64,000 nucleotides of DNA from positions 1-64,000 of the forward strand of contig NZ_JALJVY010000008.1 of the NCBI RefSeq assembly GCF_024168485.1, in the 5' to 3' direction. The translations under genes and the position numbers were made by a program. The notes beneath the pieces were generated by a model. It saw nothing but the letters and a program-made list of their open reading frames with translations. It was not told the origin of the DNA and made no database searches. The stretch comes from Sphingobium sp. OAS761. Its GTDB lineage: Bacteria > Pseudomonadota > Alphaproteobacteria > Sphingomonadales > Sphingomonadaceae. Positions within the stretch are counted from its first letter, which is position 1, and the number at the start of each line of letters is the position of its first letter. Below, in pieces: positions 38,804 through 41,618 of this stretch.

Positions 38804-40708
38804 TCAAATACCGTCCTGCGGCTGGGTGAGTTCCGCGAGCCGGTGGTCGTGGTCAGCCTTCAACGCGCGGATGCGCTGCTGTTCGGCGAAATTGGCCTCG
38901 CTGAACTCGATCTCGAACCGCCTCGTCGCCTCCGCCAGCGCAATTTCCAACTCCGGTCCCTGCACCATCACCCGAATGGCCTCCTCCAGATCGCGCGCAA
39001 CGCGATCGGGGTCGGCGGTCATCCTTTTGGGGGTGAGTGTGAACGTGTCGGCCCGGAGCATCCCCTTGGCCATATTATACACTTCACCTTGCTCCAATAT
39101 GGTAAGGAGGGTGTCCGTTTCAACAGTTTCTTTGCTGAATGACGCACGAACCATCGCGTTCGTGATTCGAGCGAGCGTCGGGTCGGCGATCCGCAGCGCC
39201 GCCAGCATCTCGCGATGGGGACGAATCTGTTCGGGATGGCGGATCAGGCTGGCCAGGATCGCGCGCAACAGGCGCTGTTCCAAACCGGTCACGCCGATCG
39301 CCCGGACCTCCGTTCCCGCCGGCGGCAGGGGCGGCTTCCAGTTGCCGCGCCGGTCGCGCTGCCAGCGGCCGCCGTCCGGCCCGCCCCGCCGCTGCCCGGG
39401 CGGGGAAGGCGATTCTCGCCGGGCGAAGAACAGCGCGTCATATCGCTCGCGAAACTCATGGGCATAATGCATCCGGACATCGGGATGCTGGATCGCGTCG
39501 GTGACGGCGCGCAGTCTTTGCTTGAGCGCGGCCTTCTGTTCGGGCGTGTCGAGCGGCGCGACGGTCAGTTCATGATGCCAAAGCCGTTCGATCAGAGGCT
39601 GTGCCGCGTCCAGCACCGCTTCCATTGCGGCGGCGCCGCTGGCGCGGATCAGGTCGTCGGGGTCCTGTCCTGCGGGAAGGACGGCGAAGTTCAGGCTCCG
39701 GCCGGGATGGAGCAGGGGCAGGGCCCGTGTGGCGGCGCGGATCGCCGCCTTCTGCCCGGCGGCGTCGCCATCGAAACAGAGGATAGGAACGTCCACCATC
39801 TTCCACAGGCGCTCGATCTGATGTTCGGTCAGCGCGGTGCCGAGCGGCGCGACCGCTTCGCCGAAGCCCGCCTGGGCCAGCGCGATCACGTCCATATAGC
39901 CTTCGACCACGATGACGCGGCCCGTCTGGCGGCTGGCGGGGGAGGCGCGGTCGATATTGTAGAGCGTGCGCCCCTTGTCGAACAGGGGGGTGTCCGGCGA
40001 ATTGAGATATTTGGGCTCCCCCGCGCCCAATATGCGCCCGCCAAAGGCGATCGTGCGTCCGCGAATGTCGCGGATCGGCAGCATCAGCCGGCCACGAAAG
40101 CGGTCGTAGGTTTCGCGCTTCCTGGTTTTCCCGTCATCCGGCTCGGCCCCGTCCGGGTCGATCAGCAGCCCGGCCTCGACCAGCATCGGTTCGCCATAAT
40201 CCTTCAGGGCGCTTTTCAGGCGTCCTCGTCCATCGGGTGAATAGCCGAAGCCGAACGCCAGCGCCGTCGCCGCGCCGATCCCCCGCTTTTGCAGATAGGC
40301 GCGCGCCTCGGCGCCTTCGATTCCGGCCATCTGCGCGACGAAGAAATCCTGCGCCGCCGCCATGACGTCATGCAGGCCCCGGGCCTGTTCCGCGCGCTTG
40401 GCGGCGCGCGGATCGGCGGCCGGCACCTCCATGCCCGCGCTTGCCGCCAGTTCCTTCACCGCCTCCATGAAGGGCAGGCCGCGTTGGTCGGTCATCCAGC
40501 GGATCGCATCGCCATGCGCGCCGCAGCCGAAGCAATGATAGAAACCCTTTTCGTCGTTGATCGTGAAGCTGGGCGTCTTTTCGTTGTGGAACGGGCAGCA
40601 CGCCTTGTACTCGCGCCCGGCCTTCTGCACCTTCACGCTCTTTCCGATGAGGGTGGAAAGCGTGGTCCGCGCACGCAATTCGTCCAGCCATTGCGGGGTG
40701 AGGGTCAT
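38804..40708 (-). CDS. dnaG: DNA primase
   Basis: A 634-residue primase that makes RNA primers for replication. The CHC2 zinc ribbon reads CCPFHNEKTPSFTINDEKG, followed by YHCFGCGAHGD. The RNA polymerase core has LMLPIRDIRGRTIAFGGRIL and the Toprim motif VIVVEGYMDVIALAQAGF. The C-terminal helicase-binding domain follows. The ATG at 40708 overlaps the stop of the DUF559 gene by four bases (ATGA), so that gene, dnaG and rpoD may be transcribed together. Confidence 0.97.
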   Translation of the reverse strand: MTLTPQWLDELRARTTLSTLIGKSVKVQKAGREYKACCPFHNEKTPSFTINDEKGFYHCFGCGAHGDAIRWMTDQRGLPFMEAVKELAASAGMEVPAADPRAAKRAEQARGLHDVMAAAQDFFVAQMAGIEGAEARAYLQKRGIGAATALAFGFGYSPDGRGRLKSALKDYGEPMLVEAGLLIDPDGAEPDDGKTRKRETYDRFRGRLMLPIRDIRGRTIAFGGRILGAGEPKYLNSPDTPLFDKGRTLYNIDRASPASRQTGRVIVVEGYMDVIALAQAGFGEAVAPLGTALTEHQIERLWKMVDVPILCFDGDAAGQKAAIRAATRALPLLHPGRSLNFAVLPAGQDPDDLIRASGAAAMEAVLDAAQPLIERLWHHELTVAPLDTPEQKAALKQRLRAVTDAIQHPDVRMHYAHEFRERYDALFFARRESPSPPGQRRGGPDGGRWQRDRRGNWKPPLPPAGTEVRAIGVTGLEQRLLRAILASLIRHPEQIRPHREMLAALRIADPTLARITNAMVRASFSKETVETDTLLTILEQGEVYNMAKGMLRADTFTLTPKRMTADPDRVARDLEEAIRVMVQGPELEIALAEATRRFEIEFSEANFAEQQRIRALKADHDHRLAELTQPQDGI

Positions 40709-41103
40709 GACGTCTCGCGCCAGTGGCTTCCCTCCCGCATGCGGGAGGGGTTGGTGGAGGGCATATCAGCAATCACCCGTTCGATTTCTCCAACCACACC
40801 GTCGATATTGTTCAGGACGTCATTGTTCCAAAACCGGATCACGCGAAAGCCTTGTGTCTCGATATAGCGCGTTGGGTCCGCATCGACGCCCATATCATGT
40901 TGGAGCCCGTGGACTTCGATCACCGATCCGATGGATCGGGCCGCCAAATCGCAGATGAAGGGGTCGATCGGTAGCTGACGGTTGAAGCGACGACCGGAAA
41001 TCTTGCGGGCGCCGATGGCTCGCCACAGGGAATGTTCCGCCCCCGCGGCGTTGCTACGCAACGCGCGTGCATTTGCGGTGGGGCGGGCGTAGCCTTGATC
41101 CAT
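40705..41103 (-). CDS. DUF559-family endonuclease-like protein
   Basis: A 132-residue protein of the restriction-endonuclease-like (PD-(D/E)XK/Vsr) DUF559 family: TANARALRSNAAGAEHSLWR, AIGARKISGRRFNRQLPIDP, FICDLAARSIGSVIEVHGLQH with the Glu-x-His metal-site segment, RYIETQGFRVIRFWNNDVLN. No biochemical role is established for these stand-alone genes. The C-terminal tail (PSRMREGSHW) is encoded by a palindromic repeat (40730-40749), and a second copy of the repeat lies just upstream of the gene (41129-41150). The gene overlaps dnaG by four bases. Confidence 0.85.
   Translation of the reverse strand: MDQGYARPTANARALRSNAAGAEHSLWRAIGARKISGRRFNRQLPIDPFICDLAARSIGSVIEVHGLQHDMGVDADPTRYIETQGFRVIRFWNNDVLNNIDGVVGEIERVIADMPSTNPSRMREGSHWRETS
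40730..40749. repeat. Perfect 20-base palindrome inside the 3' end of the DUF559 gene
   Basis: CCCTCCCGCATGCGGGAGGG reads the same on both strands. A related hairpin lies at 41129-41150, so the DUF559 gene is bracketed by two members of what looks like a REP-type palindromic family common in sphingomonad intergenic regions. Confidence 0.75.
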
Positions 41104-41128
41104 CGGCTCAGAACATGCCCTCCCCTGA

Positions 41129-41150
41129 CCCCTCCCGCAAGCAGGAGGGG
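41129..41150. repeat. REP-like palindrome upstream of the DUF559 gene
   Basis: CCCCTCC (41129-41135) and GGAGGGG (41144-41150) form a 7-base-pair stem; the centre CGCAAGCA differs slightly from the copy at 40730-40749. CCCCTGAC just before it and ACTGGTGC after it resemble flanks of the other copy (GTTGGTGGAG). It lies in the gap between yqeY and the DUF559 gene. Confidence 0.7.
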
Positions 41151-41165: not shown

Positions 41166-41618
41166 TCAGTTGAGCGCCGCTTTCACCAGCCCGCTGGCCT
41201 TGCTCATGTCGATGACGCTGCCATGCCGTTCCTTCAGCACCGCCATGACCTTGCCCATATCCTTGACGCTCGTCGCGCCGATCTCGGCCTTGATGCCCTC
41301 GATCGCGGCCTTCGTCTCGTCCTCGCTCATCTGCGCGGGCAGGAAGCCTTCTATCACGTCCATTTCGGCCTGTTCCTTCGCCGCCAGCTCGTCGCGGCCG
41401 CCGTTCCTGAACATGTCGATCGATTCGCGGCGCTGCTTCACCATCTTCTGGAGCACCTCGACCACCACGGCGTCGTCGTCGGGCACGGTGGACGCCGTGC
41501 GCAGCTCGATGTCGCGGTCCTTCAGCTTCGCCAGGATCAGGCGTACCGCGGCCAGCCTTTCCTTGTCTCCGGCCTTCATGGCGGCGACCTGGGCGCTCTT
41601 GATGGTATCGCGAATCAT
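41166..41618 (-). CDS. GatB/YqeY domain protein
   Basis: A 150-residue protein of the YqeY family, which shares its fold with the tail domain of the amidotransferase subunit GatB: MIRDTIKSAQVAAMKAGDKE, LAAVRLILAKLKDRDIELRT, QKMVKQRRESIDMFRNGGRD and EMDVIEGFLPAQMSEDETKA. A role in tRNA-dependent amidation is suspected but not shown. The ATG at 41618 is the family start. It is divergent from carA and upstream of the DUF559-dnaG-rpoD genes, the usual place in alphaproteobacteria. Confidence 0.9.
   Translation of the reverse strand: MIRDTIKSAQVAAMKAGDKERLAAVRLILAKLKDRDIELRTASTVPDDDAVVVEVLQKMVKQRRESIDMFRNGGRDELAAKEQAEMDVIEGFLPAQMSEDETKAAIEGIKAEIGATSVKDMGKVMAVLKERHGSVIDMSKASGLVKAALN

Follow-up and report, generated by a model that had tools for sequence, protein, structure and literature searches.

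Here we describe a compact, palindrome-bounded element built around a small gene of the DUF559 family (PF04480) in a 64,000-nt stretch of the Sphingobium sp. OAS761 genome (contig NZ_JALJVY010000008.1, positions 1 to 64,000; hereafter the window). The gene, a Pfam match of 132 amino acids, occupies 40705..41103 on the minus strand. Its final codons contain a perfect 20-nt palindrome, CCCTCCCGCATGCGGGAGGG (40730..40749, no strand assigned), so that the frame ends in NPSRMREGSHWRETS before the stop and the palindrome together with its outer flank encodes approximately the last 14 residues. A related hairpin, CCCCTCCCGCAAGCAGGAGGGG (41129..41150, likewise without strand), has one mismatched pair and lies upstream of the start codon, the distance from the ATG (41103-41101) to the start of its 20-nt core (41130-41149) being 26 nt. 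On the gene-facing side of each hairpin lies a purine tract that, read inward along its own strand, is GGGGTTGGTGGAGGGCAT at one end and GGGGTCAGGGGAGGGCAT at the other: the left one, GTTGGTGGAGGGCAT, spans 40750..40764 on the plus strand and corresponds to the third strand of a triplex-type motif, and the right one spans 41114..41128, reads TCAGGGGAGGGCATG on the minus strand and has the same inner sequence in relatives (locus L192, for example). The ends are therefore terminal inverted repeats of about 35 bp and not bare palindromes. The whole element, in the order hairpin, purine tract, DUF559 gene, purine tract, hairpin, covers about 421 bp (40730..41150, minus strand); its extent was called from relatives at the same site, from three empty sites (L193, L195 and L199) and from a pair of copies at two sites of another genome (L008 and L089).

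The element lies between dnaG (38804..40708, minus strand) and yqeY (41166..41618, minus strand), with rpoD past dnaG and a carA-type gene past yqeY, the four scanned neighbours belonging to the RpoD, DnaG, YqeY and CarA families. The stop codon of the DUF559 gene (40707-40705) shares four bases, ATGA, with the start of dnaG (ATG at 40708-40706). This overlap, the perfect palindrome in the last codons and the related hairpin 26 bases upstream of the start had been pointed out in an earlier sequence-only reading of the window, and all three were found as described.

The pattern CCCTCC-N2..14-GGAGGG occurs at just two places in the window, which are the two hairpins of the element, and the same two hairpins are the sole matches to CCCTCCCGCWWGCGGGAGGG with up to two mismatches across the 4.25-Mb genome (reversed-pattern control, 0). 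Since the pattern is confined to these two places in window and genome, the pairing of the hairpins is not a matter of chance. The GTAG tetranucleotide is absent beside both window hairpins, Rfam gave no match at E 0.1, and Pfam recognised only DUF559, and no transposase, inside the element ends.

Signature hairpins flank DUF559 genes across genomes

The association was examined in 170 non-identical DUF559 genes, of which 115 came from the genus of the window (the two of its own genome included; the best-scoring among the matches listed) and 55 from loci matching the window protein; the genus loci are related, so the 170 genes are not independent. A hairpin was scored when one arm carried C[CT]TC[CT]C, one mismatch being allowed, within 130 nt upstream or 160 nt downstream of the domain as delimited by a trimmed profile. 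Signature hairpins were present on both sides of 120 of the 170 genes, downstream only in 18 and upstream only in 16, i.e., on at least one side in 154, compared with none of 824 control open reading frames (ORFs) of the same loci for both sides and 30 for one side (12 upstream, 18 downstream). Per kb of sequence, 5.5 hairpins were counted beside DUF559 and 0.05 elsewhere. The window gene counts as one-sided here because the mismatch of its right hairpin falls in the signature and the detector misses it. DUF559 genes are thus regularly palindrome-flanked, as the sequence-only reading had expected, and such palindromes are far from equally common at random genes. An earlier, stricter scan, which called for perfect stems and used a self-built profile covering the C-terminal tail, had left 33 of the 170 genes hairpin-free and missed the window itself; it was replaced.

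The same picture emerged from a motif-free test in which the upstream flank was aligned to the reverse complement of the downstream flank, flanks being taken from the domain ends for DUF559 and from start and stop for ORFs. Scores of at least 19 were reached by 104 of 113 genus DUF559 genes and by 1 of 448 control ORFs. When 138 genes were scored with a slightly modified detector, the reading frame entered or crossed the first palindrome on its downstream side in 107 of them, which makes a palindrome-coded C-terminus the usual condition.

Beyond the genus, a draw of 397 genomes across Pseudomonadota contained 161 with PF04480, and 90 of their loci were read, one per genome (30 best-scoring, 60 taken from among the matches listed). 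Hairpins stood on both sides in 42 of the 90, on one side in 32 and on neither in 16 (at least one side, 74/90); positions shifted within the same loci gave 4 one-sided cases in 180 and none with both. Hairpins of like design were also found at DUF559 genes of metagenome-assembled contigs titled Patescibacteria (L055) and Uhrbacteria (L058).

Occupied, empty and solo-hairpin sites

Occupancy of individual sites is polymorphic. Thirty genus loci were read at yqeY-dnaG (the closest 30 of 93 genomes with a dnaG match): 16 contain a DUF559 gene, in an interval of 431-507 nt, 8 a GIY-YIG cassette and 3 other sequence, and the remaining 3 (L193, L195, L199) are empty sites of 14-16 nt without a hairpin. 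Empty sites upstream of dnaG, which the sequence-only reading had suggested looking for, therefore exist, and the gene is no constant, repeat-free companion of dnaG. At serA-hisZ, DUF559 is present in 6 of 30 loci (447-465 nt; in L215 the domain match falls in two pieces). In L226 a lone hairpin stands at the same place, followed by the flank that is seen after the right hairpin of the occupied locus L204, and L227 likewise has one hairpin.

Comparison of two-site copies placed element boundaries at the hairpins. Genome G031 has two copies at unrelated sites (L008 and L089) that are 89% identical over 452 nt, with homology running from 1 base before the left hairpin to 3 bases after the right one and nothing further in the 900-nt flanks. 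Homology between L041 and L084 ends a few nt from the hairpins, and between L127 and L131 within about 30 nt; five such pairs were aligned out of nine listed.

Wide mobility of the gene-bearing element was considered and is unsupported, as merging of genes that share either neighbour, which under-counts sites, left 20 neighbourhoods for the 115 genus genes. The DUF559 gene is mostly resident at fixed sites, like the REP-associated tyrosine transposases (RAYTs) that accompany repetitive extragenic palindromic (REP) sequences. The same palindrome type is present at yqeY-dnaG in L035 and L036, titled Pelagerythrobacter and Altererythrobacter and likely to lie outside the genus of the window, so arrival at this site is probably old. 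Hence the sequence-only proposal of a small cassette landed upstream of dnaG-rpoD stands with regard to bracketing and empty sites, and has to be tempered with regard to the landing, in view of its probable age and the mostly resident gene.

These boundaries also bear on the idea that the hairpins are regulatory, i.e., terminators or an autoregulatory operator held in place by selection. The layout is suggestive, with one hairpin just upstream of the start codon and the other at the gene end. On the other hand, no terminator-like T-run or promoter was matched in the window stretch, gene-less copies exist elsewhere (see below), and the element ends at its hairpins between unrelated sites, all of which make a regulatory explanation extremely unlikely.

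Hairpin ends match each other and the protein

Within the sample, the eight-letter stem class is identical at both ends in 84 of the 120 two-sided elements, the corresponding value in 2000 shuffles being 34 on average and 47 at most. On a tree of 169 DUF559 proteins with 154 labelled rows, the coarse hairpin class changes 33 times, as compared with a mean of 75 and a minimum of 66 in 200 shuffles, so ends and protein co-vary. The class goes with genomic site within the genus as well, meaning that shared inheritance contributes to the match.

The composition of 274 end hairpins is polar. On the inner side, two T-rich positions are followed by nine positions of 66-91% purine, mostly G; the outer side is without such a run (31-66% purine). 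A RAYT-like outer tag was ruled out, the outer trinucleotides being varied, with CTT and AGC/AGT the commonest.

DUF559 is likely a small Vsr/EDxHD-type nuclease

The window protein matches PF04480 with 96.3 bits (gathering score 20.6; E 1.2e-27). PADLOC and PHROGs had no match for it, and in NCBIfam it matches only the DUF559 model PRK09767.1, far under the cut-off of that model. A structure model (predicted local distance difference test score 82; predicted template modelling score 0.75) resembles 3hrl (Z 13.4), an endonuclease-like protein also matched by sequence (E 6e-14), 3r3p, the homing endonuclease I-Bth0305I (Z 10.9), and 1cw0, Vsr (Z 9.1). The catalytic-type residues E23, D52, E63 and H69 (numbered from Met 1) are kept, and the nearly invariant D65 is replaced by a His which, judged by spacing, takes the position of Vsr His64 (PMC12907096, in excerpt). 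From its fold, DUF559 is predicted to be, and likely is, a small PD-(D/E)XK nuclease of the Vsr/EDxHD type, in keeping with the earlier assignment of YcjD to the PD-(D/E)XK superfamily with Vsr as a relative (PMC1189080, in excerpt). The resemblance to I-Bth0305I, which would extend to a selfish role if our reading is right, is one of fold only; the DUF559 gene differs in being small and stand-alone, with palindromic ends and no intron or intein seen.

Resemblance to Vsr raises the alternative of a role in Vsr-type mismatch repair, in which DUF559 would be the nuclease partner of a cytosine methyltransferase and the repeats would be unrelated neighbours. Caulobacter VsrA, itself a DUF559 protein, shows SOS induction and a genetic link to ScmA, a methyltransferase (PMC12907096, in excerpt), and the fold is Vsr-like. 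However, the repeat association lies far over control and follows the protein tree, the DUF559 gene differs from Vsr genes in its bracketing hairpins, and no methyltransferase is among the four scanned neighbours, which is as far into the genome as that search went. As a full account we find this alternative barely conceivable, although a repair role and a repeat-linked role need not exclude each other and may coexist.

A second element in the same genome

The 4.25-Mb genome has one other DUF559 gene, located in the hisZ-serA interval. Palindromes of a related type bracket this gene: CCCTCCCCCCATGGGGGGAGGG falls within its final codons, CCCTCTCCCCGCCGGGGAGAGGG stands upstream of it, and a purine-rich tract lies inward of both hairpins. 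The pattern CCCTCYCCCN0-10GGGRGAGGG occurs at 3 places in this genome, two of which are the ends of this second element. By eye, other palindromic pieces (gtcattccc... and gatgccagccttcgctggcatgac) were noticed about 1.2 kb from the gene (L001:1-240).

Link to BoxC repeats and E. coli ycjD

BoxC repeats were originally described beside envM (fabI). They have been known since the 1990s, and a 2015 study characterised them as triplex motifs that are abundant and linked to instability. In it, Holder and co-workers named the BoxC/PIT motif, a hairpin followed by a purine strand, TM-ECO; they give 23 copies for E. coli K-12, report its presence in >260 genomes, and state that transposase or integrase remnants were never found at TM-ECO (PMC4666352). 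In E. coli K-12 the DUF559 gene is ycjD, and TM-ECO no. 9 of the same source (1,351,239-1,351,204; Table 1) is located in the ycjD-fabI interval, about 170 nt downstream of the former.

The final codons of K-12 ycjD enter an apparently decayed BoxC copy, CCCTCTCCCTGAAAGAGCGAGGGG. An exact type B triplex-motif (TM) unit forms the end of the gene in L236 and L239, whose proteins share 62-63% identity with YcjD; this unit is followed by an inverted exact type A unit, and inverted A+B arrangements of TM units have been described earlier (PMC4666352, in excerpt). Exact TM units are also found at the YcjD homologs of L244 (64%) and L251 (54%). The ends of the Sphingobium elements share with BoxC/PIT/TM-ECO the C-rich/G-rich stem followed by a purine tract, and they differ in detail: the pattern CCCTCNCCC-N3-6-GGGNGAGGG-N3-GGGNGAGGG has no letter-for-letter fit at the window ends, the CCCTCCCGC stem of which is a variant, whereas the upstream end of the second element fits apart from a 2-nt second loop. 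A further difference is the DUF559 partner, as no associated mobility gene is reported in PMC4666352. A literature search, which missed most subscription papers, found no published link between DUF559 and BoxC repeats.

Two side observations were made by eye: between ycjD and fabI in K-12 (L168:5200-5761), the decayed hairpin is followed by a partial duplication of the gene end and an intact BoxC precedes fabI, and tandem repeats of about 55-60 nt with half BoxC units lie downstream of the YcjD homolog in L251. As ycjD was matched in 3365 of 5426 genomes, those without it were considered as a possible source of empty sites; in the two E. coli genomes opened (L169 and L170), however, a resistance-nodulation-division (RND) multidrug efflux cluster stands beside sapF in the sapF-fabI interval.

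Gene-less pairs and palindrome numbers

Palindromes also occur without the gene. In three palindrome-rich genus genomes, successive listed copies are often 65-160 nt apart, or 393-400 nt, and two of the wider intervals, that of 397 nt in G002 and that of 400 nt in G004, enclose a DUF559 gene. Among the places listed, 12 of 33 palindromes (G002:C10), 10 of 17 (G004:C1) and 22 of 39 (G006:C1) belonged to close pairs without a gene, so that many palindromes stand alone. Twenty pairs were read in these genomes, picked as close neighbours among the places listed, and all 20 consist of two hairpins with facing inner tracts, the tract being directly beside both hairpins in 18; in L322 and L340 other sequence lies between one hairpin and its tract. 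The gene-less pairs thus share the ends of the elements, and L324 and L326 have extra inner sequence in common with the gene-bearing element L029 of their genome, such as gggctggcgcgac in L324. In the window's own genome, no dispersed pairs of the window palindrome type were found beyond the element.

Across the 397 genomes, palindrome number tracks DUF559. With a strong DUF559 match defined as E <1e-10, the 125 genomes that have one contain a median of 16 copies of CCCTCYCCCN0-10GGGRGAGGG, and 83 of them have at least 5, compared with a median of 0 and at least 5 copies in 11 of the 236 genomes without a DUF559 match. Weak matches (E 1e-3 to 5e-8; 36 of the 161) were handled separately, and 5 of these 36 genomes reach at least 5 copies. 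Within the genus (94 genomes, two patterns together), palindrome number correlates with DUF559 copies at rho 0.70, with medians of 16 in the 85 genomes with the gene and 2 in the 9 without. As a separate observation, genomes G339, G445, G147 and G266 carry 146, 90, 62 and 33 BoxC-type palindromes without a strong DUF559 match and are possibly cases of repeats orphaned by gene loss.

A separate transposase, e.g., of the Y1/RAYT kind, could in principle mobilise the repeats with DUF559 as a passenger. Y1 proteins are the known partners of REP sequences (PMC8266576 and PMC3116915, both in excerpt), and the Y1 family PF01797 is present in 23 of the 94 genus genomes. It has no match in the window's genome, the transposase search having covered this family alone, and the repeats are without the GTAG tag. 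Moreover, median palindrome counts with and without PF01797 (16 and 14, p 0.15) are not clearly different, and in the 71 genus genomes without it, DUF559 copies and palindrome count correlate at rho 0.77. The Y1 transposase does not account for palindrome numbers, and a passenger role for DUF559 is very unlikely.

The main rival explanation reverses the roles of gene and repeat. BoxC repeats would be dispersed by other means, and DUF559 would encode a homing-type nuclease; once it has cut a solo hairpin, host repair would copy the gene into the break, the hairpins being target sites and not transposon ends. In its favour, the second-best fold match is a homing endonuclease, solo hairpins (L226, L227) stand at sites occupied elsewhere, and identical classes at both ends are what gene conversion would yield. 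Against it, some gene-less pairs share inner element sequence beyond the hairpin, which is easier to explain by internal deletion than by a bare target, genomes lacking DUF559 have few palindromes, and the three empty yqeY-dnaG sites are hairpin-free, though later deletions are possible there. We regard homing into pre-existing repeats as unlikely.

A nuclease and its palindromes as a proposed REP-like system

It seems to us probable that the DUF559 gene and its hairpins constitute a compact element resembling REP sequences, their hairpin-forming doublets (REPINs) and RAYTs, with a Vsr/EDxHD-type nuclease that acts on the folded ends of the element, and with host repair spreading the units. 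The resident nuclease gene would be inherited mainly at fixed sites, alongside dispersed gene-less inverted pairs that share its ends. The nuclease would recognise its own hairpin ends once these have extruded, either as cruciforms or, where the DNA is single-stranded (as at forks), in hairpin or triplex form, and would nick beside them. Host repair and recombination might then copy the element or the pair into a new site, convert the ends to one type, or delete the gene and leave one hairpin behind. To our knowledge, no hydrolytic nuclease joins strands in the way Y1 proteins do, and host functions would accordingly be required; this is the least supported step of the proposal.

The likeness to REP/REPIN-RAYT systems consists in a resident, palindrome-flanked nuclease gene at mostly fixed sites, in dispersed gene-less inverted pairs, and in a palindrome type that follows the protein lineage (PMC3116915 and PMC8266576, in excerpt). 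The differences are an enzyme of the PD-(D/E)XK/Vsr type instead of a Y1 HUH protein, the lack of GTAG and the inner purine tract. The DUF559 system therefore lies outside the RAYT family, having neither a Y1 enzyme nor a GTAG tag, even though it follows REP/REPIN logic. The sequence-only reading had arrived at the same logic with a Vsr-like protein in place of a Y1 transposase, and is supported in both logic and fold; the repeats themselves turned out to be of the triplex/BoxC kind and not GTAG-tagged REPs. Miniature inverted-repeat transposable elements and insertion sequences are similar in their terminal inverted repeats and gene-less derivatives, and differ in that no known transposase lies inside the DUF559 ends and no target duplication was seen by eye.

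Several observations weigh against this proposal. Hairpin-free DUF559 genes make up 16 of the 170 and 16 of the 90 sampled. In an earlier 250-nt flank test with mismatched DUF559 pairs as control, just 21 of 165 genes exceeded the control 99th percentile and direct orientation scored about equal to inverted, although this test is weak because the mismatched control pairs share the repeat family. Homology passes the hairpin on one side in two of the five aligned pairs (L033/L091 and L060/L063), and target-site duplication was not seen by eye in any of the five, divergence limiting that test. The 20 neighbourhoods imply that the gene itself rarely moves. Hairpin class, genomic site and protein clade travel together, which is also expected from inheritance alone. 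As for numbers, the counted pattern is missing from 17 of the 125 genomes that have a strong DUF559 match, and 16 of the 272 without a strong match have at least 5 copies, up to 146; the genus contrast weakens once two palindromes per gene are subtracted (medians 9 and 2, p 0.001, rho 0.44); and the palindrome counts, including the Mann-Whitney and Fisher values for the 397 genomes, ignore phylogeny. Single-strand folding energies of four ends are unexceptional for their base composition (z -0.6 to -2.0). Finally, the window protein departs from 4 of 13 nearly invariant positions, Asp 65 among them; together with the lack of further genomic palindrome copies, this means that the window copy may be inactive, perhaps a relic. 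Nicking, movement and nuclease-driven spread are proposed from the comparison of sequences.

If the proposal is true, REP-like replication would be possible without Y1/HUH chemistry. With genes that carry the repeats as ends, a tree that agrees with repeat type and an occurrence that goes with repeat number, this nuclease family also makes the origin of BoxC directly testable, and DUF559, a family of unknown function that includes E. coli YcjD, gains a concrete candidate substrate.

GIY-YIG genes as a likely parallel case

In eight of the yqeY-dnaG loci (L173, L174, L178, L180, L187, L189, L190 and L191), a GIY-YIG gene stands in the position that DUF559 occupies elsewhere; the gene of L173, the only one scanned, matches PF01541 with E 3e-15. 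These genes lie between inverted repeats of the kind CCGTTCGTTTCGAGCGAAGTCGAGAAACG, which encode their C-termini. The inverted-flank test was applied to these 8 genes and to 20 small stand-alone frames chosen from those listed (L371-L390; long frames were passed over), and 27 of the 28 could be aligned. Scores of at least 19 were obtained for 23 of the 27 (median 29), compared with 1 of 448 other ORFs; mismatched GIY-YIG pairs gave a median of 10 and a 95th percentile of 29, a high tail that arises because repeats are shared between loci.

The flanking repeats are of the CCGTTCG... or CGTCATTCCCGC... type. The latter start with a CGTC tag, from which we infer that they belong to the CGTC-tagged repeat superfamily, for which no association with transposase genes was reported (PMC3733652). 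The pairing of GIY-YIG genes with palindromes is a strong lead towards the same logic as in the DUF559 elements, obtained with shallower testing. More generally, there may be an unrecognised class of bacterial selfish elements, each pairing a small hydrolytic nuclease, and not a transposase, with palindromes of its own (DUF559 with BoxC/triplex repeats, GIY-YIG with CGTCATTCCCGC... or CCGTTCG... repeats), and much orphan repeat content (BoxC/PIT/TM, perhaps also CGTC repeats) would then be gene-less offspring, arising via nicking at folded DNA and host repair; for this wider generalisation we consider the chances evenly balanced. At serA-hisZ, many of the loci without DUF559 (among L205-L230) were seen by eye to carry a gene-less inverted CCGTTCG...CGAACGG pair.

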